Of a DNA stretch of 20,519 nt, positions 3,626-20,250 are shown one piece after another (the stretch's first letter is position 1; every line of letters starts with the position of its first letter). The stretch is from a virus. Location of the stretch: IMG/VR virus record IMGVR_UViG_3300037502_002762, positions 1 to 20,519 of that record, one strand, 5' to 3'. The notes beneath the pieces are model-generated. The model had not been told where the DNA came from. It saw only the letters and a list, made by a program, of their open reading frames with translations, and did not search any database. Both the position numbers and the translations under genes were made by a program.

Positions 3626-6366
3626 TATGCTTTCCCTTCAAGTGCTTTCATCATCGCGTACATGCGCTTGGCGCCCAAGCGCCGTGAGCCTTTGCCCATG
3701 CCACGGACTGCTTTGGCCGTAAAGACAAACTCACCATCAGAGAGCATAGCCGGGATGGAATCCGATGTCGCGGTTCCCGGTCCGTTGATGGCGCCGTTCT
3801 TACGAGGAAACTCGGGCGTACCGCCTTTCCTGAGTGTAGCGATACCGCCTTGAGCTGCAAACATCGGAGCTGGAGAAACAGAAAGACCTGCGGTTCCCGC
3901 AAGGTTTTCTGTTGAGTAAGGTGCATAGACCGTTCGTCCCCCTCCTGGGGTAAAAAATGGTTTTGCTGTTGTTCCTGTTGTTCCTGTGGCTCCGCTAACA
4001 GAGAAAGGAACATACTCATAGGAGCTGGGAACAAGAAATGTTTCCTGCATCTTTTGTATTGCACTAGCTAAAAATCCTGGTTTTAACGGTTTTTTTGCAA
4101 GGGCCTCTCGCGCTTGGGCTATTTCAGGGGAATAGACAGGATTCCTTGTCACATACTGATTTTGTTCTGTGTCAAAAAATATTTCTGCGGGCCTATATCT
4201 AGAGGACCCTGTCGATACAATACCCCCCTCAGCATATCCCTGTGGGGACATTGTCTGTTGCGGGGCAGCGTAATACTGCATCGGGCTAAACATGAACCGA
4301 GGGGGTATGTATTGCCGGCGGGGCAAACCGTATCCCATGTAAGGCGGTGTAAAGTATTGCGTTGCAGCACCGCCTGGGGTTGTGCCATAGATCTCAGGGC
4401 TTTGAGCAAGCAAATCAAACCCAGTTTCTTTTGGAACGATGCCCGGGGCCTCTGGTTGCTGAGGGCCACCCATGGCGCCCAAAGCTAGCGTTCCAGCGGC
4501 AACAGTGGGGCCGTAGCTGCGAATAAAGCTGGGGTTGAGATCTTTGGAAGCCATCTGCAATGCTTCGGTAGGCTTAAACCCGGCCTGAACGTATTGCTGA
4601 TAGTTCGGGCTTTGAATGAGTTGTTGGTTGGTGTAGGAAGTGGGCATGAAAGCCTCTTTCGCTGCACCAAAGTAGTCGCCCTGCCGATACAGATCCATGG
4701 CCGACGGGGCCTGTTGGAATCCGGTAGCTGCAGGAGACCCGGGGAGAGTTCCGATACCTCCCGTTGTCGGGCCCATCGCGGAGAGTCTAGGAGTTGTATA
4801 GCTTCCTGGAACACGAATACCTCCACCTAGTGCTTGCTCAGAAGCAGCGGGGGTGGGAATCCCTTGGCCAGACGTAATCAAGTTCTGATAGTCCGAGGTA
4901 GACATATAGTCAGGGCCCGCGGGGAAGGGAACTGTTGGTGTTGCCGCTCCCGAGGCGAGCAAGTTTTGAGCGTCCGCTGTAGATAAATAATCCCCAACCG
5001 AAGGCGTGGGGAGACTCGTGATGCCTGTTCCGGGGCCAATGGGAGCTGCGTTTGTTAGCATCTCCCCGGTGACGGGATCGAACGAAAACCCTTGAGGGCC
5101 ACCAGGAAGAGCGAATGTCTGTGAAGCTGGAGCAATCGGAGTTGTAAGCGCAGGAGGTGCTGCGACTACCGGCGAGGAGACAGCCGGGGTCAATAGCTGC
5201 TCGCCCGTGATGGGATCAAACAGGAAGTCTTGTGGCCCAGCAATTGGTTGACCAGCAAGTTCTGTCACGGTGGGAGCCGTAGGCGCTTGAACAGGAGAGA
5301 CCTCTACGTTAGCAAGATTACCTGCCACCTCAGGCTGTGCAGAGGGCATGCCAAGAAGGGACTTGCCCGACTCAACCGCACGGTCCCATTGACCAGATAT
5401 TGTGGTCGGACCAGCATAAGACTTAGCCTCAAAGGCGCCCATGCCGCCCGTTACACCCGCCGTTACACCCGCGGTAAGGCCGCCAAGAGCACCGCTCTTC
5501 AAAGAATCCTTAAGGCTTTGTCCAGCAAGAAGGCTCGAGCCAAAGCCCCCAACAAAGCCGCTGACTGCGGCCACGCCGGCAGCGGACGTGATTCCAAACT
5601 GAGCGGCCGCAGCCGGTCCAAGGAAAAAGCCCAACGCAACGGCAGTGACGATTTTTCCGACCGAGGATTTGGCAAAGCTTTTGATTGCTCCTGCGATGCC
5701 CTTGACCGCACCTCCAATCGCTTTGCCTACAGACTTAAAGGCACCGCCAACAGCTTTGGCCACGGATTTAAAGAAAAACTCAGGCAGCCCAGTGACTGGG
5801 TTGATCGTTCCGGAACCTCCGCGGCGGCGCAGCATACGTGCCTCTGCCGGGGTGATGTGCGCCAGCATTCGGTCACCATTGCGACCCTGACTAGCCAGGG
5901 CTTGAGCAATCGGGTTGAGTTGAACGATTCCGCCTTCGGCAAAGCCCTGAACGCCCATAGGCATCATCGACCCGGACATCTGGTCCAGGGCCATGTTCAG
6001 TGCGCCAAAATAGGCTGCATCAAACTCAGGAGGAAGGAGCTCTTCAGGAACTCCCTCTTTGATGAATTCGGCTCGTATTTCTTGGTAGTTTTGAGGCTCA
6101 GCAAGAACGGCATCAACCATCTGCCCAAGAGCGTCAATGATCTCAGGAGGTAGTTGTGCGCTATCCAAAGCTTGCCTAAACCGCTGAACTTCTACGGGGT
6201 CCGTATCCTCCGCCGCGGCCAGCAACTCAGTGCCAAATTCACGGGGATCAATCTGCTGACGCGCAGATTCAAACGCTGCTGAAGCAGCAGGATCAAACAT
6301 CGGGGGCTGGTTGGCCGGCGCCGGTGCGCCCATGCCTCCCAAAGACATAATGCCTTGCTCTTCCAT
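3625..6366 (-). CDS. Large internal/tape-measure-like virion protein, 913 aa, with amphipathic 11-residue repeats
   Basis: The ATG at 6366 has AAAGGA six bases upstream; an in-frame TTG at 6381 is a poorer start. The N-terminal 150 residues are acidic and helical. FAEGGIV follows, then a Lys/Gly/Ala-rich amphipathic stretch (199-242) of four 11-residue units (FKSVAKAVGGA, FKSVGKAIGGA and two weaker ones). A hydrophobic Gly/Ala region comes next (VALGFFLGPAAAAQ and onward). The middle is Pro/Gly-rich and disordered, with two short internal duplications. Two further motifs, YAEGGIV and AAQGGIATL, come late. The C-terminus carries SDSIPAMLSDGEFVFTAKAV, a motif I recognise from tape-measure-like and internal proteins of environmental phages. 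It probably contributes to envelope penetration during DNA ejection. It is the first gene after the only real intergenic gap and its candidate promoter. Confidence 0.8.
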   Translation of the reverse strand: MEEQGIMSLGGMGAPAPANQPPMFDPAASAAFESARQQIDPREFGTELLAAAEDTDPVEVQRFRQALDSAQLPPEIIDALGQMVDAVLAEPQNYQEIRAEFIKEGVPEELLPPEFDAAYFGALNMALDQMSGSMMPMGVQGFAEGGIVQLNPIAQALASQGRNGDRMLAHITPAEARMLRRRGGSGTINPVTGLPEFFFKSVAKAVGGAFKSVGKAIGGAVKGIAGAIKSFAKSSVGKIVTAVALGFFLGPAAAAQFGITSAAGVAAVSGFVGGFGSSLLAGQSLKDSLKSGALGGLTAGVTAGVTGGMGAFEAKSYAGPTTISGQWDRAVESGKSLLGMPSAQPEVAGNLANVEVSPVQAPTAPTVTELAGQPIAGPQDFLFDPITGEQLLTPAVSSPVVAAPPALTTPIAPASQTFALPGGPQGFSFDPVTGEMLTNAAPIGPGTGITSLPTPSVGDYLSTADAQNLLASGAATPTVPFPAGPDYMSTSDYQNLITSGQGIPTPAASEQALGGGIRVPGSYTTPRLSAMGPTTGGIGTLPGSPAATGFQQAPSAMDLYRQGDYFGAAKEAFMPTSYTNQQLIQSPNYQQYVQAGFKPTEALQMASKDLNPSFIRSYGPTVAAGTLALGAMGGPQQPEAPGIVPKETGFDLLAQSPEIYGTTPGGAATQYFTPPYMGYGLPRRQYIPPRFMFSPMQYYAAPQQTMSPQGYAEGGIVSTGSSRYRPAEIFFDTEQNQYVTRNPVYSPEIAQAREALAKKPLKPGFLASAIQKMQETFLVPSSYEYVPFSVSGATGTTGTTAKPFFTPGGGRTVYAPYSTENLAGTAGLSVSPAPMFAAQGGIATLRKGGTPEFPRKNGAINGPGTATSDSIPAMLSDGEFVFTAKAVRGMGKGSRRLGAKRMYAMMKALEGKA

Positions 6367-12584: not shown

Positions 12585-13691
12585 CGCTTTGTTAGCACTA
12601 CTGCTGACATAAAATGCGCTTCCTTGCCCAACAGTTAAACCAGACGCTACTGTTACCCCAATTACAGGACAACGAACACTTGGAGTGTCCAATACTACTG
12701 CGGTGGCAGTGACGGATGATCCTGCTCCATTTAATGCGAAATAGTTACCGACCGAACTAGAAAGAACTAAAGACTGTCCCGAAGCGGATCGCATGGTTAC
12801 AGGGACATTTATTGGGGTGAGTGAAAGTGTAGTTAAAACACTATAACCACCACCAGCCCAATCAGAATTAGTTGACCCAACATCCCGACCAATCGCTTGA
12901 TAACAGTACCTTTGACACAACGCCAACTCAGTCCCATAAGGTCTGCGCTCAAACGGCGTGGCGACAGAGCCTGCTTCGAGTTGGACGCCTGTGATGTAGA
13001 AGGTGGCTCCGTTGGTTCCGACTACGCTGGTTGCGCCTGTGGCTGAAAGATAATTTGCACCCGCCCATGCACCAGCAGTTCCGCTTAAAGTAGAGCCAAC
13101 GCCAAGACCAAACAGAAGCACCAGCCCTGCGCCGTTATTTGTAACCCATGTTCCAGTCGTATCACCCGCAATAGCGACAGTCTTTTGTTCCCAAGTATTA
13201 GATGCGGAAACGCTATAGGTAAAAGGATATGAACGGTTAGCCGCACTATTCTTCACCGCACCGCCGAAAGTCCCTGTCAGCGAAGAACGAACCCAAAAAG
13301 ATAATGTTACGGACTTAGCGTTTGCAGTTCCCCAATTTAAATCTGCAACATTAAAACCTTCAATCGTCTGGCCAGTCATAAAGTAATCAGACGCCCCAAT
13401 TGAAACCGAAGATGCAACGGTCAGTCCGAGATAGTTAGTAAACCCAGCAGGGGGCGTAATGCTCCCAGCATTTTGTTGGATCGTAAATTTGCTCGCTTGA
13501 GATGCGTCAAAAAACCAGCGGTCGACTGTATATTGAAAACCCGTAGGAGTCACCGCCGCACCAGCATTCCTCTGGTCAATCCTCATGTCACCATTCAATA
13601 TCCGATTCTTAAAACTGAAGGCTCCACCAGAAAATTGGTTTGTGCTGTCTGGGAATGTGACTCCGTCACTGCCCGAAATAATCATTGTCAT
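12564..13691 (-). CDS. Receptor-binding tail fibre with carbohydrate-binding-like domain, 375 aa
   Basis: A short N-terminal attachment segment (SGSDGVTFPDSTNQ) leads into a widely distributed phage domain: NRILNGDMRIDQRNAGAAVT, YTVDRWFFDASQASKFTIQQ, VTLSFWVRSSLTGTFGGAVK, TWEQKTVAIAGDTTGTWVTN and GATFYITGVQLEAGSVATPF. This pattern is the CBM-like jelly roll of tail fibres, in which FYITGVQLE is the last strand. ELALCQRYCYQ marks its end. About 110 further residues form a variable strand-rich C-terminal tip. The start codon overlaps the homing endonuclease stop (ATGA). DNA is AT-rich relative to the structural genes (23 of 60 G+C at 13321-13380). It probably contacts a surface glycan of the host. 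Confidence 0.85.
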   Translation of the reverse strand: MTMIISGSDGVTFPDSTNQFSGGAFSFKNRILNGDMRIDQRNAGAAVTPTGFQYTVDRWFFDASQASKFTIQQNAGSITPPAGFTNYLGLTVASSVSIGASDYFMTGQTIEGFNVADLNWGTANAKSVTLSFWVRSSLTGTFGGAVKNSAANRSYPFTYSVSASNTWEQKTVAIAGDTTGTWVTNNGAGLVLLFGLGVGSTLSGTAGAWAGANYLSATGATSVVGTNGATFYITGVQLEAGSVATPFERRPYGTELALCQRYCYQAIGRDVGSTNSDWAGGGYSVLTTLSLTPINVPVTMRSASGQSLVLSSSVGNYFALNGAGSSVTATAVVLDTPSVRCPVIGVTVASGLTVGQGSAFYVSSSANKAFITSEL

Positions 13692-14344
13692 GCTGCTAAC
13701 TCCTTACGTTGTTTGTGCCAAGCTTTAGTGGCCTCGCTGCGTAGTTGACGCTCTTCAACAGACTGAATTCTTCCTTTGCGGGATGCAGACATTTTAGCCC
13801 TTGTTTCGGCAGACACAACCCTACTTTTGTTCATAGCAATGATGTCAGCACTCCTGCGTTTCTGAGCCTCGCTCATCTTTTTCCGAGTCTCTTCTGAAGC
13901 TTTTTTACCCAAGTTGGGGCCAACCCTTCCAGTCATCACTTCGCTTAGCTTTTGTTTGCCAGACTCCGGGTACTTCTTGCCCTTCATTGGCGAAGGTAGG
14001 CTAAGTCCTTTTCTCCAGCCACGGTGGCCCATTAACGACAAACTATGTTTACGTCGACGCTCTTCAGTCCATTTATGTTCGTCAGACCCACCAGCTTCGA
14101 TGTTGTACCCGTTGGGGGTAATCGAATTAAAAACTGAAATCCAAAAATGCTCAAAAAAGTTTAGCGTTTTTCTGCTGAGAATATTATTGGTGATAACTTC
14201 ATACGAAAAGTTTTCAAACCCGTGCTTCTTGTACGCAAGCCTCAATAACTTCCCATGCCCACGCCTGTTACGCAACGTAATTGTTTGCCCCACGTACTGT
14301 TTTCCAGTGAGGTTATTGGTAACAAGGTAGACATGCCCATTCAT
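13688..14344 (-). CDS. Free-standing GIY-YIG homing endonuclease with NUMOD3 repeats, 218 aa
   Basis: The ATG at 14344 overlaps the stop of the fibre gene as ATGA and has AAAGGTGG eight bases upstream; a GTG at 14356 is less likely. The catalytic domain shows VYLVTN (5-10) and QYVGQT (16-21) as the GIY...YIG pair, an Arg cluster at 25-28, AYKKHGFENFSYEVI (38-51), the catalytic Glu in FFEHFWI (E65) and NGYNIEAGG (79-87). NUMOD3-type DNA-binding motifs follow (MKGKKYPESGKQKLSE, GKKASEETRKKMSEA, SAETRAKMSASRKG). It cuts a homing site in DNA lacking the gene and promotes its own spread. It is not inside an intron: the coding sequences on both sides are complete. AT-rich composition (19 of 60 G+C at 14161-14220) fits recent arrival. 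Confidence 0.93.
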   Translation of the reverse strand: MNGHVYLVTNNLTGKQYVGQTITLRNRRGHGKLLRLAYKKHGFENFSYEVITNNILSRKTLNFFEHFWISVFNSITPNGYNIEAGGSDEHKWTEERRRKHSLSLMGHRGWRKGLSLPSPMKGKKYPESGKQKLSEVMTGRVGPNLGKKASEETRKKMSEAQKRRSADIIAMNKSRVVSAETRAKMSASRKGRIQSVEERQLRSEATKAWHKQRKELAA

Positions 14345-15111
14345 AAAATCAACCACCTTTGTCCGCTACTGACTGTAATAGTCACCGACGTGTCCACGGT
14401 AATTGGCCCCACGCTCAACCCATTCTCACCCGCCGCTATTGTGTAGCTGGCTGTAGCCGTGTCTTTATTAGTCAGTATCGCACCACCTGCCTGAGCACCA
14501 GAGATACCGCCCCAAGCACTGCCGTCATAACCCTCGAACTGATCGGTGTCGTCGTTGAAGCGGAACATACCCTTGGCAGGCGTAGGCCGTTGAGCCTGTG
14601 TTCCAACCGGCATGGTCACTGCACCCGTGCTGCTAAATACAGGATTGCCCGTGACCGTCAAAGCCGACAAGGTCGCCGTACCACCCGCCAAATTCACGAA
14701 ATCAAACGCCACCACCACATTCGTGCCGTCCGCATACACATGCATCTTGCGGCCATTGGGCACGGTCACCCCGGTCCCCGCCGAGGTCTTCACAACAATA
14801 CTCTGGCCCCCAGTCGTATTGTTCTCTATTAGGTACTGCTTCTCAATAGTCGGGACAATCAAATTACGGGTCGCGGTCAACGAGCCCGTAGAAGTCACAT
14901 TCAGGATCAGATTCCGGAAAGTCTGAGCCGCATTGCTGTCCGTGTAGCCAAGCGTCAAATCCGCATCCGTGGGGAAGTTGGCCGCAGCACGACCAGTAAT
15001 CGCCTCTTCAATGGCCGTGCCCAGGTTCGTGTTGGTTGTTACACCCCACGTTCCCGACTGCTCACCATTTCCAATGAGCTCGATTTTCAGCGAACTGTAA
15101 GTACTCGCCAT
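14341..15111 (-). CDS. Tail fibre / surface structural protein, 256 aa
   Basis: The N-terminus ASTYSSLKIELIGNGEQSGT, then WGVTTNTNLGTAIEEAITGR, is a very common start of environmental phage fibre-like proteins. Strand-rich repeats follow, then a fibre segment QAQRPTPAKGMFRFNDDTDQ with EGYDGSAWGGI. The last 42 residues (ending TITVSSGQRWLIL) are 28/42 identical to the C-terminus of the 153-aa protein at 16350-16811, so this is a shared tip or assembly module. AAGGA lies upstream of the ATG at 15111. The homing endonuclease starts inside its stop codon. Confidence 0.8.
   Translation of the reverse strand: MASTYSSLKIELIGNGEQSGTWGVTTNTNLGTAIEEAITGRAAANFPTDADLTLGYTDSNAAQTFRNLILNVTSTGSLTATRNLIVPTIEKQYLIENNTTGGQSIVVKTSAGTGVTVPNGRKMHVYADGTNVVVAFDFVNLAGGTATLSALTVTGNPVFSSTGAVTMPVGTQAQRPTPAKGMFRFNDDTDQFEGYDGSAWGGISGAQAGGAILTNKDTATASYTIAAGENGLSVGPITVDTSVTITVSSGQRWLIL
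14344..14469 (-). repeat. Duplicated 42-residue C-terminal tip module, copy 2
   Basis: These 42 codons of the 256-aa fibre gene encode the same module as 16353-16478: SYTIAAGENGLSVGPITV followed by TITVSSGQRWLIL. The two are 28/42 identical at protein level, while the DNA has diverged more, so the copies are not recent. This copy borders the homing endonuclease. Confidence 0.85.
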
Positions 15112-15121
15112 CTTCTATCCT

Positions 15122-16345
15122 TTAAGCCGCTATGGGCACCCAAGTGACGGTCTGGGAGTCATTGACAACCACCCAATTTCCCGTCTGTCCATCATTAACA
15201 TTTTGCCAGTTAGGCACTTGATTGTCATTAATTGTGGTCCAAATCGTGACCGAACCCACCCGACCAACCGCCTGAACCCCCGTAACCCCAACACGAGCCC
15301 CAGCTCCAACAGTGACAGGGCTAACAGCACCCGTTCCCTGAACTCCCGTAACATTGACCGTGACAGGAATGCTGGCATACGCCTGACCAATAAATCCATC
15401 GCCCTGTACCCCAGTAACGGCAACAACCGCACTTTGGATGACAATAACATTGCCAACCTGCCCATCGCCCTGAACGCCCGTGACCGGTACCGAAGCCGAT
15501 CCAGTAATAGCAGTCTGGCCAATGGCCCCAGCGGCAAAAACACCCGTAACCGCAACAACCGCGGCAGCCTGGACGGCAACATCTCCAACTTGGCCGGTTC
15601 CGAGGACTCCGGTGACGGGGACGACTGCGTCCCCTGTCTGGGCGGTTTGTCCGATGAATCCGGTTGCGCTGACCCCGGTAACGGTGACACTTGCCCCACC
15701 AGAGACGGCAACGGTCCCAATAGCACCGCTACCTGAGACCCCGGTGACGAGGACGACTGCGGTTCCGGTGACGGCAACGTCTCCGATGAATCCCGAACCT
15801 TGGACCCCGGTGACGGGCACAGTAGCGCCGGCAGTGACGTTAGCCTGACCGATGAATCCTGTCGCCGAGACTCCATCCACGGCGACCACTGCGGAGCCCG
15901 AAACAGCAACATCTCCAATTGCTCCGGTGCCTTGAACGCCGACAACGGCAACATCCGCTGACCCGACAACGGCAACCGTTCCAATCGCTCCGGTTGCTTC
16001 GACTCCTGTAACAGGAACATCTGCTCCCGCTTGAGCAACAACGTCTCCAATTGCCCCAGTTCCAGACACCCCGGTCGGAAAGACGTTTGCGGTACCGGTT
16101 TGTTGGGTTTGGCCAATAAATCCGGTGCCTTGTACGCCAGTGACAAGAACGGAGGCCGCCGCCGTAACTGCGACGGTGCCAACTGCTCCTGTTGCTTGAA
16201 CGCCTGTAACCGGTACATTTGCCGCTCCTGTTACCGCAACTGTTCCAACGGCCCCAACGCCCTGAACACCAGTAACTGAAACCTCAATCGAAGCAGACCC
16301 CAGGTCTGCAAACGGGGCTCCAGCAAACGGGGTAATCCCGAACAT
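15122..16345 (-). CDS. Repeat protein: 16 tandem 22-residue repeats plus Trp-repeat C-terminus, 407 aa
   Basis: Residues 1-18 (MFGITPFAGAPFADLGSA) are a recurrent phage N-terminus. Residues 19-368 are 16 repeats, 15 of exactly 22 residues and a final one of 20, built around VPVTGVQGTGAIGTVAV. The TGV and IG/VG positions are nearly invariant. Alternating small/hydrophobic residues suggest two or three short strands per repeat, as in a beta-solenoid or a fibrous trimer. Residues 369-407 are three 11-residue units of pattern W-x-x-[IV]-N-D-x-Q (WTTINDNQVPN, WQNVNDGQTGN, WVVVNDSQTVT). There are no catalytic motifs. It is very probably an elongated virion surface protein. A degenerate form of the same repeat occurs at 18915-19289. 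Confidence 0.88.
   Translation of the reverse strand: MFGITPFAGAPFADLGSASIEVSVTGVQGVGAVGTVAVTGAANVPVTGVQATGAVGTVAVTAAASVLVTGVQGTGFIGQTQQTGTANVFPTGVSGTGAIGDVVAQAGADVPVTGVEATGAIGTVAVVGSADVAVVGVQGTGAIGDVAVSGSAVVAVDGVSATGFIGQANVTAGATVPVTGVQGSGFIGDVAVTGTAVVLVTGVSGSGAIGTVAVSGGASVTVTGVSATGFIGQTAQTGDAVVPVTGVLGTGQVGDVAVQAAAVVAVTGVFAAGAIGQTAITGSASVPVTGVQGDGQVGNVIVIQSAVVAVTGVQGDGFIGQAYASIPVTVNVTGVQGTGAVSPVTVGAGARVGVTGVQAVGRVGSVTIWTTINDNQVPNWQNVNDGQTGNWVVVNDSQTVTWVPIAA
15125..15241 (-). repeat. Three 11-residue Trp repeats at the C-terminus of the repeat protein
   Basis: Codons 369-407 encode three tandem units with the pattern W-x-x-[IV]-N-D-x-Q-x-x-[NT], followed by WVPIAA. The unit is half the length of the 22-residue repeat before it, but its sequence is unrelated. 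Confidence 0.85.
15242..16291 (-). repeat. Tandem array of 66-bp (22-codon) repeats, 16 units
   Basis: Fifteen units of exactly 66 bases and a last unit of 60 encode the 22-residue repeat. Length is strictly kept although the DNA sequences have diverged. The period is a multiple of three, so other frames also stay open over much of the array; one such frame is open for 362 codons on the same strand but is a by-product. Confidence 0.92.
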
Positions 16346-16349
16346 GCCG

Positions 16350-16811
16350 TCACACTACCAGCCAGCGCTGGCCCGAACTAACCGTAATAGTGACTCCGCT
16401 TGCGACAGTCACAGGCCCCACCGATTGAGCGTTCGTGCCCGTTTCAATCGTGTAGCTTTCTGTGGCCGTCGTTGCGTTTACAACAAATGCACCAATCCCT
16501 CCCCCGCCACCAGTGATGGCACGTTCAGATGGATAAGTTACAAAAACGTCTTTACTTCCAGCCGCAAGATCAATTTTTGATCCAGTGCTGGACGAAAGAA
16601 CTGTATCCCTGGAAAGCGTAGTTCCAGAAGAGGTATACGTGCCAATGCCCACTTCCCACTGCGAACCACCAACGATGGTGTAGTAGGTAGTGTTTCCATT
16701 TCCAATGGCCGCAAAAGACTGATAACCAGTTGTGGCACCGGCAAGCGTGAGCGTACCGGTGCCAGTTGTGGTCGTGGTCTCTTTGACCCTGTCTTTAATT
16801 ACAAGGGCCAT
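16350..16811 (-). CDS. Tail-associated structural protein, 153 aa
   Basis: The protein begins MALVIKDRVKETTTTTGTGT and then LTLAGATTGYQSF, a widespread phage structural family that continues WEVGIGTYTSSGTTLSRDTV and KDVFVTYPSERAITG. A Gly stretch (GGGGGIG) links this to a C-terminal 42-residue module (112-153) shared with the 256-aa fibre gene at 14341-15111. It has AAGGTG six bases before the ATG. It lies directly upstream of the repeat protein, and the shared tip suggests that both proteins end in the same attachment or trimerisation element. Precise location in the virion is unknown. Confidence 0.8.
   Translation of the reverse strand: MALVIKDRVKETTTTTGTGTLTLAGATTGYQSFAAIGNGNTTYYTIVGGSQWEVGIGTYTSSGTTLSRDTVLSSSTGSKIDLAAGSKDVFVTYPSERAITGGGGGIGAFVVNATTATESYTIETGTNAQSVGPVTVASGVTITVSSGQRWLVV
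16353..16478 (-). repeat. Duplicated 42-residue C-terminal tip module, copy 1
   Basis: It encodes SYTIETGTNAQSVGPVTV followed by TITVSSGQRWLVV at the end of the 153-aa gene, matching 14344-14469 at 28/42 residues. Confidence 0.85.
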
Positions 16812-17545: not shown

Positions 17546-18247
17546 CTATGTCCTTAAGGCTTCTGGAGGCAGCAAAGGAGAGGTCTCCTCCGGCTCTTCA
17601 ATTTCAGAGTACTTTTTGGCTACAAAACGACCGTTTTCCAGCCCAACCACCAGGGGTTCGGCCAGCCGGTGATAGCCATAAAGCTTACTTTTGACGGGCT
17701 CGTTGGTGTCCAACAAGGAAGATTCTTGAGCAATCCCAACCTTGATCCCCCGGCTAATCGCTATAGATAGCAAGAACTCACAGTTAGCCCGCCCTGCCTC
17801 GGCAAAGTGGACATAGCCCTTGTACGAGAAATCGATCCCGTAGAGGTGGATTTCAGCCACTTTTGCTGCAATCGCAAAACCGATGGCGTAAGCCACAGTG
17901 TTGTTGAAGTACCCCGTGCGACAGTCGTTCATGACATCTTCCAGGGGGAACTCCACCAGCCCCGGGCATCGATCATCCAGCTCACAGGTGTAGATGGGTC
18001 CCTTATGCTCCTTGAGCACCTTGGACATGATGCCTGTCTGGCTGCCCGCATCCTCGGAATCCAAGAACCGACTGGCCGGATCCATCATAAACACCCGGTC
18101 GTGGTAGATGATCCCCGACATGCAGTTGATCGCCCAGACTTCATCAAAATCAAAAGAATGAGTCCTGGCCAGTATGTACTGACCGTGACTTCTTCCCATT
18201 GCGACTATTGCTACTTTCTTGCCTTCTAGGTTTGGTACTTGGCTCAT
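17546..18247 (-). CDS. Rossmann-like protein resembling MptE/DUF115 enzymes, 233 aa
   Basis: The N-terminal strand-loop KKVAIVAMGRSHGQYI (10-25) resembles the Gly-rich entry of MptE-like proteins (6-hydroxymethylpterin diphosphokinase-like) and DUF115 glycan-related proteins. A second hallmark is VAYAIGFAIAAKVAEIHLYG with IDFSY (118-142), the usual 'A-K-I-LxGxDxSY' strand and loop, followed by HFAEAGRANCEFLL. The length suits one domain. There is no signal peptide or membrane segment. It overlaps the adaptor gene by four bases, so it is made with the tail proteins. Relatives act on nucleotides, pterins or surface sugars; which reaction this one performs, if any, cannot be seen here. Confidence 0.65.
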   Translation of the reverse strand: MSQVPNLEGKKVAIVAMGRSHGQYILARTHSFDFDEVWAINCMSGIIYHDRVFMMDPASRFLDSEDAGSQTGIMSKVLKEHKGPIYTCELDDRCPGLVEFPLEDVMNDCRTGYFNNTVAYAIGFAIAAKVAEIHLYGIDFSYKGYVHFAEAGRANCEFLLSIAISRGIKVGIAQESSLLDTNEPVKSKLYGYHRLAEPLVVGLENGRFVAKKYSEIEEPEETSPLLPPEALRT

Positions 18248-18903
18248 GGGCCTGGACTCTCCGATTTTATGGGCAGACGAATCATTCCGTCTCTGTACTC
18301 GTCGCGTCTGCGTCTTCCTTGTTGCTCCACTCCAAGCCCTTGGATGGACTCTTTGTAAGCATTATTGAAATAAGCCAACATATCTGGTGGCCCTTTTGTG
18401 TAGCTGTAGGCTTGAATCAAACAGGCATACAGCAACGCCTCCGGGGCATTGTTGCTCACCCAGGTGGTCGTATTCGTGGAAGAAAGTTGGGCCGGGCGGT
18501 AGATGTAGCCAAGCTCGACCGCATAGGACGCCGCGGGAGTCGGTGCCACATAGAAGGTGTTTTGATCCCACACGGAGTAGTACTTGGGAATTCCGGTGTC
18601 CGTCCCATCTGGCCAGTACTCCTTCATAAAGGAAGTATCCCGGAAATCCAAGAAAACTTGGTCTCCACCAGCCGAAGTCAGCATCATGTAGCGGTGCGTC
18701 AAGATGTCAGTTGGGGCGGTCAAGAACTTGTTTCCTGACGTCAGAGAGCCTGCCACCTCGAGCTTGAAAACATCCAAGTCAATGTCACGAAGAATGCGAT
18801 TCTCCGCCATCGTGATGAAGGTATTGATCACCGAGTTGGAAAAGACGTTGCTGTCTACCTCGGTGTAGTTACGAATATTGGTTACAAGTTCGTCGTATGT
18901 CAT
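18244..18903 (-). CDS. Head-tail adaptor protein, SU10-type, 219 aa
   Basis: The N-terminus MTYDELVTNIRNYTEVDSNV, then SVINTFITMAENRILRDIDL, LTSGNKFLTAPTDIL, GIPKYYSVWDQNTFYVAPTP, YAVELGYIYRPAQL and NAPEALLYACLIQAYSYTKG reproduce, in order, the motifs of the phage SU10-type adaptor family. These proteins form a ring between portal and nozzle and initiate the tail tube. The length is typical. It overlaps the genes on both sides by four bases, which fits stoichiometric production of neck proteins. No abnormal features. Confidence 0.85.
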   Translation of the reverse strand: MTYDELVTNIRNYTEVDSNVFSNSVINTFITMAENRILRDIDLDVFKLEVAGSLTSGNKFLTAPTDILTHRYMMLTSAGGDQVFLDFRDTSFMKEYWPDGTDTGIPKYYSVWDQNTFYVAPTPAASYAVELGYIYRPAQLSSTNTTTWVSNNAPEALLYACLIQAYSYTKGPPDMLAYFNNAYKESIQGLGVEQQGRRRRDEYRDGMIRLPIKSESPGP

Positions 18904-19586
18904 GTTGTAGTCACCGATGGATCGCCTACGTCACCTGACCCCTCCACGCTTTGCGGGGTAAAGGACACGTCAGGCACAACAACCTCCCCAATACTACCAG
19001 ATCCGCTCACACTTGATAAGGGAACTGGCAGGACTAAGCTAACAGAAACAGGGTTGACCGAAGCCGTACTTCCCACGCCCGTTACGGCAACAGGAGCATT
19101 TCCTATAGTAGCTACGTTTCCAATGCCTCCAGAGCCTGAAGCGCTGCCAACAAACGGAATAATTACGGAGTTGCCCTCGGCAGTAACGCTTCCAATTTGA
19201 GCGCTAGCACTGACCCCTGCGGCCAAAACGACCCTAGCATGGCCGCGGATAAAGACATTTCCGATCTCTCCCACCCCATGAGCCGTATCTTGGCTCGGGT
19301 AAGGACGCATGTTGATTACGTTGTTGGCACTACCAACGCTCTGGAAGTAAGTAAATCCAGGCTGGCCAACATAGACATCTACCGGCTCAACCCGGTCAGG
19401 CCGGGGCTGAAGAAGTGCAACCGCATCTCCCCGATACCTTAGGGGCTCTAGTTGCGGTTCCTTGGGCTCGTAATCCTCTGGGCAGACCTTGAATCCGCGC
19501 CAGTTCTTCTTTAAGACGTTGTATGGATACCGCTGGCCGCAGTAGTCGCATAGACCATACGAGTATTTGCCGGTTGCGTAGGCCAT
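18900..19586 (-). CDS. Virion protein with CxxC N-terminal domain and degenerate 22-residue repeats, 228 aa
   Basis: Residues 7-40 (KYSYGLCDYCGQRYPYNVLK onward) contain C13-x2-C16 and C35, with D38 where a fourth zinc ligand would be. So metal binding is possible but incomplete by the usual four-Cys rule. Residues 40-84 (YEPKEPQLEP and RPDRVEPVDVYVGQPGFTYF) resemble a conserved segment of environmental phage proteins. Residues 100-224 are five to six loose copies of the 22-residue repeat found in the 407-aa protein (GVSASAQIGSV, GSASGSGGIGNV, VSGSGSIGEVVV). The gene sits between connector and adaptor, so a neck-associated surface protein is likely. AAATG context with a one-base gap from the previous gene. 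Confidence 0.75.
   Translation of the reverse strand: MAYATGKYSYGLCDYCGQRYPYNVLKKNWRGFKVCPEDYEPKEPQLEPLRYRGDAVALLQPRPDRVEPVDVYVGQPGFTYFQSVGSANNVINMRPYPSQDTAHGVGEIGNVFIRGHARVVLAAGVSASAQIGSVTAEGNSVIIPFVGSASGSGGIGNVATIGNAPVAVTGVGSTASVNPVSVSLVLPVPLSSVSGSGSIGEVVVPDVSFTPQSVEGSGDVGDPSVTTT
18915..19289 (-). repeat. Degenerate 22-residue repeats in the neck-region protein
   Basis: The IG/VG marker pairs fall at residues 108, 131, 155, 199 and 220, with one copy (near 177) lacking it, giving spacings of 21-24 residues. The copies carry GVxxS-x-x-IGxV like the 407-aa protein but have indels. Confidence 0.65.
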
Positions 19587-19587
19587 T

Positions 19588-20250
19588 TCATACCCCTAAG
19601 TATGGGATGAAGGAAACACTCGCCGTGTCCCGATCCTCCAACGCAGCTCTTGTAAAGTCTTCCTCGTACATCTGTTTAAGCCCCGTTACCCGGTCTGGAG
19701 CAAACTTCAGCGACAGGTAGTACGCCAATCCCGACACCAAACAAGGCAAGAACCGGAAATTGACGTCGGCCGTATTGGTGTAGTTCCCCGCATCCTGAAT
19801 GCGCCGAATCCTGTAATACACAAACGTATAAGGCCCGTTCGGTCGAGGATACAAAAATACCTTGGTCGGGTTGGCCCGCTGCACATAGTACTGAGCAGGA
19901 CGAGCTCCCGTCTGTTTGTCCGGGATGTTGAGATACTCCTCCCGGCTGATTCGGTCAATCGTGATGTCCACCGAAGGCGATTGGGAGTTGTCCCGAATCA
20001 CAGCAGATAAGACGTTGACTGTATCCGAGCTCAGGGTAATTTCCGCCGTTCCCGTGAGCGGGAAGGTGGCCTCTTCAATGGTCCAGAGATTCAGACCGCG
20101 ATTGGCCCAATCCAAGAACAAAAGATTTAACGAACGACGGGCAGACGACAGTTGATAGCCGCTCTGCATTCTCATGCCGCAGCGCTCAAAGGCCTCCTCG
20201 ATGATGTCATCGATGGCCAGATCAAAAGTAGTGGTGCCGGAAGTCGTCAT
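19588..20250 (-). CDS. Head-tail connector protein (P22 gp4-like), 220 aa
   Basis: The protein begins with a helical part, LAIDDIIEEAFERCGMRMQS, then LSSARRSLNLLFLDWANRGL and NLWTIEEATFPL. This pattern of two helices leading to 'L-WANRGLNLWT' is typical of P22 gp4-like connector proteins. A beta part follows (ITLSSDTVNVLSAVIRDNSQ, YYVQRANPTKVFLYPRPNGP, YTFVYYRIRRIQDAG), then a C-terminal helix, LVSGLAYYLSLKFAPDRVTG, and EDFTRAALEDRDTASVSFIP. P22 gp4 is the ring below the portal. The partial upstream gene overlaps it by four bases. The assignment is by motif order and position; a different neck family is possible. Confidence 0.6.
   Translation of the reverse strand: MTTSGTTTFDLAIDDIIEEAFERCGMRMQSGYQLSSARRSLNLLFLDWANRGLNLWTIEEATFPLTGTAEITLSSDTVNVLSAVIRDNSQSPSVDITIDRISREEYLNIPDKQTGARPAQYYVQRANPTKVFLYPRPNGPYTFVYYRIRRIQDAGNYTNTADVNFRFLPCLVSGLAYYLSLKFAPDRVTGLKQMYEEDFTRAALEDRDTASVSFIPYLGV

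Follow-up and report, generated by a model that had tools for sequence, protein, structure and literature searches.

A phage gene for 22-residue repeats whose open +1 frame probably encodes a second protein

Does one stretch of phage DNA, coding for a regular array of 22-residue repeats, also carry a second gene in another reading frame? The question arises from a linear virus record of 20,519 bases, here called the window and analysed at its full length, which is probably a fragment of a larger genome. The array itself is fairly ordinary; the surprising part is the probable overlapping +1 gene. We consider, with a probability of roughly three in four, that the array DNA also encodes a second, unrelated, real protein translated from the overlapping +1 frame as described below. 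The features on which the argument rests are collected in Table 1.

Table 1. Positions of the array gene, the proposed nested gene and related features in the window
Feature	Positions	Strand	Basis
Array gene (main frame; P0001)	15122-16345	minus	ORF, 407 aa
16-unit array, 22 residues per unit (last unit 20 in the register of the sequence-only reading)	15242-16291	minus	anchors, AF2 beta-solenoid-like model
C-terminal part, one Trp per 11 residues	15125-15241	minus	sequence read; low AF2 confidence
Nested +1-frame ORF (P0003), proposed overlapping gene	15130-16218	minus	362 aa, open frame and constraint
AGGAG, candidate ribosome-binding site of the nested ORF	16225-16229	minus	6 bases before the ATG at 16218
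Units 6-8, core with dominant +1 constraint	15683-15880	minus	third-position variability, dN/dS
Unit 9, raised codon conservation	15617-15682	minus	codon identity of 0.81 where residues agree
Second repeat gene: Cys-rich N-terminal domain (phrog_28581) followed by related repeats	18900-19586	minus	repeats at 18909-19280

The minus strand of the window carries genes for two adaptor-like proteins, the C-terminus of a tape-measure-like protein, a DNA ejection protein, several tail-fibre-like proteins, a 3TM holin and an M15 peptidase/endolysin. The array gene belongs to this tail/fibre gene cluster, and its product would be located in the virion. Two other minus-strand genes, 16350-16811 and 14341-15111, end in a nearly identical C-terminal module (ITVSSGQRWLVV and ITVSSGQRWLIL, respectively) that is common to the tail-fibre families phrog_34255 and phrog_5342. 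A GIY-YIG/NUMOD3 homing endonuclease gene lies between two fibre-like genes (13688-14356, minus strand), and a 918-aa gene contains two tandem 33-base copies that are 78% alike (5708-5773). A scan with the product of 18900-19586 returned at least 590 relatives, and among the best 80 of these the lower-ranked ones match its first 95-114 residues only.

The sequence-only reading had described the array as 16 units with fixed TGV and IG/VG positions, and its span and unit count are correct: the 350 residues equal 15 x 22 + 20, and the 16 GV anchors are spaced by exactly 22 residues. The array protein is 51% identical to itself at a lag of 22 and 55% at a lag of 44, whereas the maximum in 1000 shuffles, at any lag from 5 to 59, was 23%. 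The motif positions are fixed nearly throughout, with GV in 16/16 units, but [IV]G is present in 15/16 and TGV in 14/16. In the C-terminal part, tryptophans follow at W369, W380, W391 and W402. The same reading had recognised no named repeat family, and the searches agree: no Pfam, NCBIfam or PHROG family matched P0001 (best PHROG E 0.12), Pfam gave no family at E <= 1, the curlin repeat included, and a sequence search of the PDB yielded no significant match.

Tandem Repeats Finder detected no DNA array at this gene. DNA identity among the first 15 units is limited, as had been claimed, with a mean of 53.3% (range 36-68%), and mean protein identity among the units is 54%. A random synonymous redraw from the same codon pool gave an inter-unit DNA identity of 53.5 +- 0.5%; the similarity in DNA is therefore explained by the protein alone, and the units are old. 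This rules out a very recent unit duplication and upholds the earlier view of the array's age. Compared with its relative L001, the window shows 76% identity for units that occupy the same place in the array and 53% for those that do not, and the best L001 DNA match is the same-position unit for 10 of the 15 window units.

A scan of viral contigs for the array gave 75 loci; rows L073-L075, without a unit-profile hit, and L076-L077, which are the window itself, were left out. Unit number varies among relatives, as had been surmised: the 73 array proteins, the window included, comprise 53 distinct ones with 2-28 anchors, some of them shortened by contig ends. A strict unit length of 22, however, does not hold for the family. 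Among 691 anchor spacings, counted with heuristic anchors and over redundant lineages, 388 equal 22, 172 equal 20, 46 equal 21, 35 equal 24 and 16 equal 16, with other lineages at 20 or 20/21. Even spacings make up 624 of the 691, which suits alternating strands. The C-termini of relatives, read by eye, carry Trp repeats with a period of 11 residues, which is half that of a unit.

N-terminal elements, also read by eye, are swapped among relatives (MFGITPFAGAPFA, MATYSGWGGGPWGE and MPLPTRTDV). At the 5' end of the array gene (16350-16345), the MFG-type relatives L001, L022 and L182 have the gene 16350-16811 just upstream; in WG-type relatives tblastn did not find this gene, and a phrog_644 gene usually adjoins the array. 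We read this 5' difference as a cassette exchange. WG-rich stretches (e.g. WGANPWGLSVWGG) replace part of one or two units in L020, L039, L031 and L034, and the +1 frame stays open through those of L020 and L039. In L044 (3100-4298) the repeat-coding sequence is divided between two abutting ORFs of 280 and 119 aa, so the array gene may be broken there.

Within the phage collection a single record matched, the uncultured phage DSL-LC04 (OR003939; protein WJZ48131.1), a metagenome-assembled phage from a lake (PMC10611076). A search of plasmids for array relatives gave no match, and a close-range scan of prokaryote genome contigs with a single array protein matched 79 stretches, none encoding a relative. 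With the plasmid and prokaryote scans empty of relatives and one record from the phage collection, a bacterial or plasmid origin of the array was rejected.

AF2 modeling of the monomer with 25 sequences produced a regular beta-solenoid-like fold, with mostly three short strands per unit, at moderate confidence (mean pLDDT 60.5, pTM 0.53); block means of pLDDT are 65-82 over residues 21-230 and below 50 for residues 343-407. Foldseek found no solved structure at E <= 0.001, the best being the curli subunit CsgA (8c50, E 0.46, probability 0.13). Among predicted viral proteins (BFVD) it found four at E <= 0.001: A0A6J5P871, A0A6J5PBZ6 and A0A6J5Q5Q3 from uncultured Caudovirales phages, at 14-29% identity, and A0A0P0YMC0, which has no name. 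The three phage proteins are similar in predicted structure but are themselves predicted and have no assigned function. When 40 chains pre-ranked by Foldseek were compared by VIA-align, CsgA came first (Z 21.7, rmsd 9.1, 284 aligned), followed by RsaA (Z 18) and then by left-handed helices. CsgA, whose repeats are also about 22 residues long, and the S-layer protein RsaA are the closest structural neighbours of the model among these chains, but aligned identity is 10-12%, rmsd 6.3-9.1, and the array protein has no Pfam match.

A beta-solenoid is our best guess for the fold: the array product would be an unnamed phage repeat protein, probably a stalk in which the units are stacked in a beta-solenoid-like manner. 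That the solenoid is an artefact, and the array instead assembles as a trimeric fibre or adopts some other beta structure, is a possibility to be taken seriously, if the less probable one. AF2 favours beta-solenoids for repeat sequences, mainly perfect or near-perfect repeats (PMC11795689); the moderate confidence, its fall towards the C-terminus and the lack of a solved structure at E <= 0.001 in the Foldseek search also favour an artefact. The array units have diverged, however, and are not near-perfect repeats of the kind for which that bias is reported; in addition, anchor spacings are predominantly even, as strand alternation would favour, and beta-solenoids rank first in VIA-align.

The openness of the alternative frame was assessed against synonymous shuffles. 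In the window array gene, +1 stops occur at codons 38 and 405 only; these 2 stops over 408 codons compare with an expectation of 7.0 (p 0.003), and the longest open run, 366 codons against 137 expected, was reached in 0/300 shuffles. Low +1 stop counts (p <= 0.05) occur in none of the other 21 genes of the window. Among these is 18900-19586 with its related repeats, where the +1 frame is not open (13 stops against 10.3 expected). A longish +1 run occurs at 19588-20250 (p 0.033), and +2 stops are low at 18244-18903 (p 0.013) and 19588-20250 (p 0.030).

Among 52 distinct relatives, the +1 frame is open almost throughout in 17 and not in 35. The longest run has p <= 0.002 in all 17 open relatives, and the stop count has p <= 0.01 in 16 of them (L026: 0.108). 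Outside this clade, L036, L043, L052 and L072 show a mild shortage of +1 stops (p 0.004-0.022), without a full-length run. Three array segments examined in 12 sequences contain 0 +1 stops each, against 21.5, 21.4 and 28.1 expected. The alternative frame is open beyond what codon usage predicts, and openness of almost the whole frame was seen in a single group, 17 of the 52 distinct members.

WJZ48131.1 of DSL-LC04 resembles the window protein in its repeat array, its C-terminus with Trp 11-mers and an open +1 frame over the whole gene, and its N-terminus is WG-type; it differs in that its +1 frame shows the ESRRQD core only in partly recognisable form, and it is annotated as a hypothetical protein. 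The gene has 1 +1 stop against 7.1 expected, with 0/500 shuffles as low, and shows the strongest +1 openness of 34 genes tested among the 85 features of the record, these being mostly genes above ~120 codons, not all such genes. The DSL-LC04 primase gene has few +1 stops too (p 0.003). In L199, a +1 open run of 220 codons lies at 28056-29921, the DSL-LC04 DNA polymerase I gene, and 0/300 shuffles were as long. A profile HMM similarity between the +1 frames of DSL-LC04 and the clade (E 2e-42, two-sequence search) was discarded as evidence because main-frame similarity forces +1 similarity.

A scan with an alignment of the +1 proteins produced 73 pattern matches and, from these, 31 loci, of which 25 lie on contigs already returned by the array scan and six on others; a scan with P0003 alone found no locus because its search patterns lay outside the conserved core. 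The motif ES[RQ]RQD was present in the +1 frame of 23/23 sequences inspected, each with the array in its main frame, and six of the 23 come from contigs missed by the array scan. In none of the 23 does a +1 stop occur after codon 38 until, at the earliest, the last 34 codons of the main frame.

Codon context separates the clade from its relatives. In 13 clade sequences, GTA accounts for 2/615 Val codons before A or G and 44/324 before C or T (p 3e-19, a pooled value that, like the others here, is too small for sequences that share ancestry), whereas in 15 relatives outside the clade the counts are 180/630 and 74/274 (p 0.69); both samples were hand-chosen for divergence, and it is the contrast between them that counts. 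The other 21 window genes tend in the opposite direction, with 56/251 before A or G and 16/143 before C or T (p 0.0065). Avoidance of GTG before A is seen both within the clade (4/300 vs 78/639) and outside it (8/239 vs 71/665, p 0.0003), so that only the GTA signal is clade-specific.

A trace of a second coding frame is found in units 6-8. In a comparison of 12 sequences by unit, the share of identical residues for which near relatives also use the same codon is 93% in unit 6, 75% in unit 7, 93% in unit 8 and 81% in unit 9, against 73% in unit 10, 74% in unit 15 and 53-66% in units 3-5 and 11-14; codon agreement in neighbouring genes, window versus L001, is 43-59%. Variability by codon position was then counted in 13 of the 23 sequences, namely those keeping 252 codons after the core start, with L008 and L011 removed by hand as redundant. 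Third positions are variable at 26/66 sites in units 6-8 and at 103/110 in units 10-14 (p 4e-15), whereas first positions (31/66 vs 50/110, p 0.88) and second positions (23/66 vs 46/110, p 0.43) vary alike in both regions. The third position of a sense codon is the second position of a +1 codon, and a freeze of third positions with first and second positions free therefore indicates a coding constraint in the overlapping frame. Correspondingly, main-frame dN/dS is 0.87 in units 6-8 and 0.22 in units 10-14, while +1 dN/dS is 0.65 and 1.31, respectively.

Synonymous variation of the older frame is reduced at the codon position used by the +1 frame in units 6-8 only, since third positions in units 10-15 are as variable as usual. 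Unit 9 has an ordinary ratio of third- to first-position variability and a +1 dN/dS of 1.03, and further on the value is 1.31-1.39; openness is kept there, the sequence is not. Eleven invariant columns of a 20-sequence +1 alignment fall in units 6-8, and the +1 peptide PALLCP is the same whether the main frame reads AGAT (window) or TSVA (L001). The +1 flanks of this core would have to be read through in translation but not to preserve their sequence, which would fit a stretch that is disordered or simply basic. An excess of +1 identity over codon shuffles, seen in all units, was discarded as mostly shared ancestry in favour of the position-specific contrast. The idea that strict unit length reflects selection on a regular fold is supported by the regularity of the AF2 model, but it is tempered by the moderate confidence of that model and by the share of the constraint that comes from the +1 frame; the main-frame dN/dS of units 6-8 should not be read as fold constraint alone.

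The nested ORF would be translated by internal initiation. AGGAG-N6-ATG is present in 4/4 MFG-type sequences (window, L001, L002 and L022). In WG-type relatives the main-frame W-G-Y codons by themselves produce an ATG at +1 codon 31, in 12/12, without a clear AGGAG. P0003 contains 20% Leu, 12% Arg, 11% Pro and 11% Ser, with a pI of 11.3 and a charge of +27; six relatives have a pI of 10.4-11.4. Searches of P0003 against PHROG, Pfam, NCBIfam, phage records and the PDB gave no match of note, and AF2 with 20 sequences gave no confident fold (mean pLDDT 43.9, pTM 0.19).

Several other explanations of the +1 signal were weighed. Translation of the +1 frame as a fusion, through a +1 ribosomal shift that yields a longer or differently ended fibre protein, would fit those relatives, DSL-LC04 among them, in which openness begins right at the start of the gene; in many members, however, the open region is cut off from the main start by a +1 stop (at codon 38 in the window and at codon 26 or 28 elsewhere), and we regard a fusion as unlikely, though not far-fetched. 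It is quite unlikely that only the array protein exists and that openness is a codon habit, either inherited codons or a codon-pair preference. Val, Thr, Gly and Ala codons do dominate the array, few of them able to make +1 stops, and GTG before A is avoided outside the clade as well. Yet inter-unit DNA identity equals the random-synonymous value and leaves no room for a general codon memory, the same repeat type at 18900-19586 and the other 20 window genes show no stop deficit, 35 of the 52 relatives lack the open frame, and the third-position freeze would be left unexplained.

The local character of the codon conservation, in units 6-9, would also suit a DNA or RNA element, whether regulatory, structural or a patch of recombination, instead of coding constraint. 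Such an element, or a recent exchange, should reduce variation at all three codon positions, but first and second positions vary as elsewhere; no Rfam family reached its gathering threshold within the window, and the openness of the remaining units would stay unexplained, which makes this reading very unlikely. An overlapping antisense gene, in the frame whose codon boundaries coincide with those of the main frame, would likewise leave first positions free, and its dN/dS over units 6-8 (0.52) is even lower than that of the +1 frame. It was set aside only because stops interrupt it inside units 6-8 in 8/16 sequences, including the window, where the +1 frame has none; the longest antisense run in the window is 204 against 197 expected and is unusual (p 0.00) in one near relative only, L013. 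We hold an antisense gene to be extremely improbable.

Returning to the preferred reading, an overlapping +1 gene, we hypothesize that the main frame encodes a phage tail/fibre-cluster protein in which unit number would set the length of the stalk. In one clade, the +1 frame of the whole array would be kept free of stops to encode a second protein of roughly 250-400 residues, which would start at its own ATG inside the array gene and probably end 3 to 34 codons before the main stop. As a guess, the product may be an accessory protein, basic and for the most part disordered, that makes contact with nucleic acid or membrane. The nested gene appears to be the younger one and to have been overprinted onto the array within one clade, since the whole family has the array but a single group was seen with the open +1 frame. 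We lean towards the fuller picture of a freshwater phage clade that keeps a nested +1 gene of ~250-400 codons with its own start, a conserved core of ~66 codons and freely varying basic flanks.

The locus resembles overprinted nested genes of viruses in that a second frame on the same strand is open and partly conserved within an older gene in one clade only, and in that the predicted product has no relatives and an unusual composition. It differs in spanning a whole protein-repeat array, over ~250-400 codons, in a tailed dsDNA phage, and in that both frames survive 66-base changes: with a unit of 66 bases, gain or loss of units preserves both frames. The nested phage genes E in D of phiX174 and Rz1 in Rz of lambda are much shorter. 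Literature searches on the unit peptide, on 22-residue phage or beta-helix repeats, on overlapping genes and on nested tail-fibre ORFs found nothing comparable.

If translated, the nested ORF would be a long same-strand overlapping gene in a repeat array of a tailed phage, of a kind that annotation misses; in the DSL-LC04 record, the main frame alone is annotated. It would also mean that a second gene can be born within a repeat array whose unit length is a multiple of three, and that such an array can carry it through changes in unit number. With dozens of array relatives, with and without the second frame, the family offers a system in which the birth of a gene may be studied.
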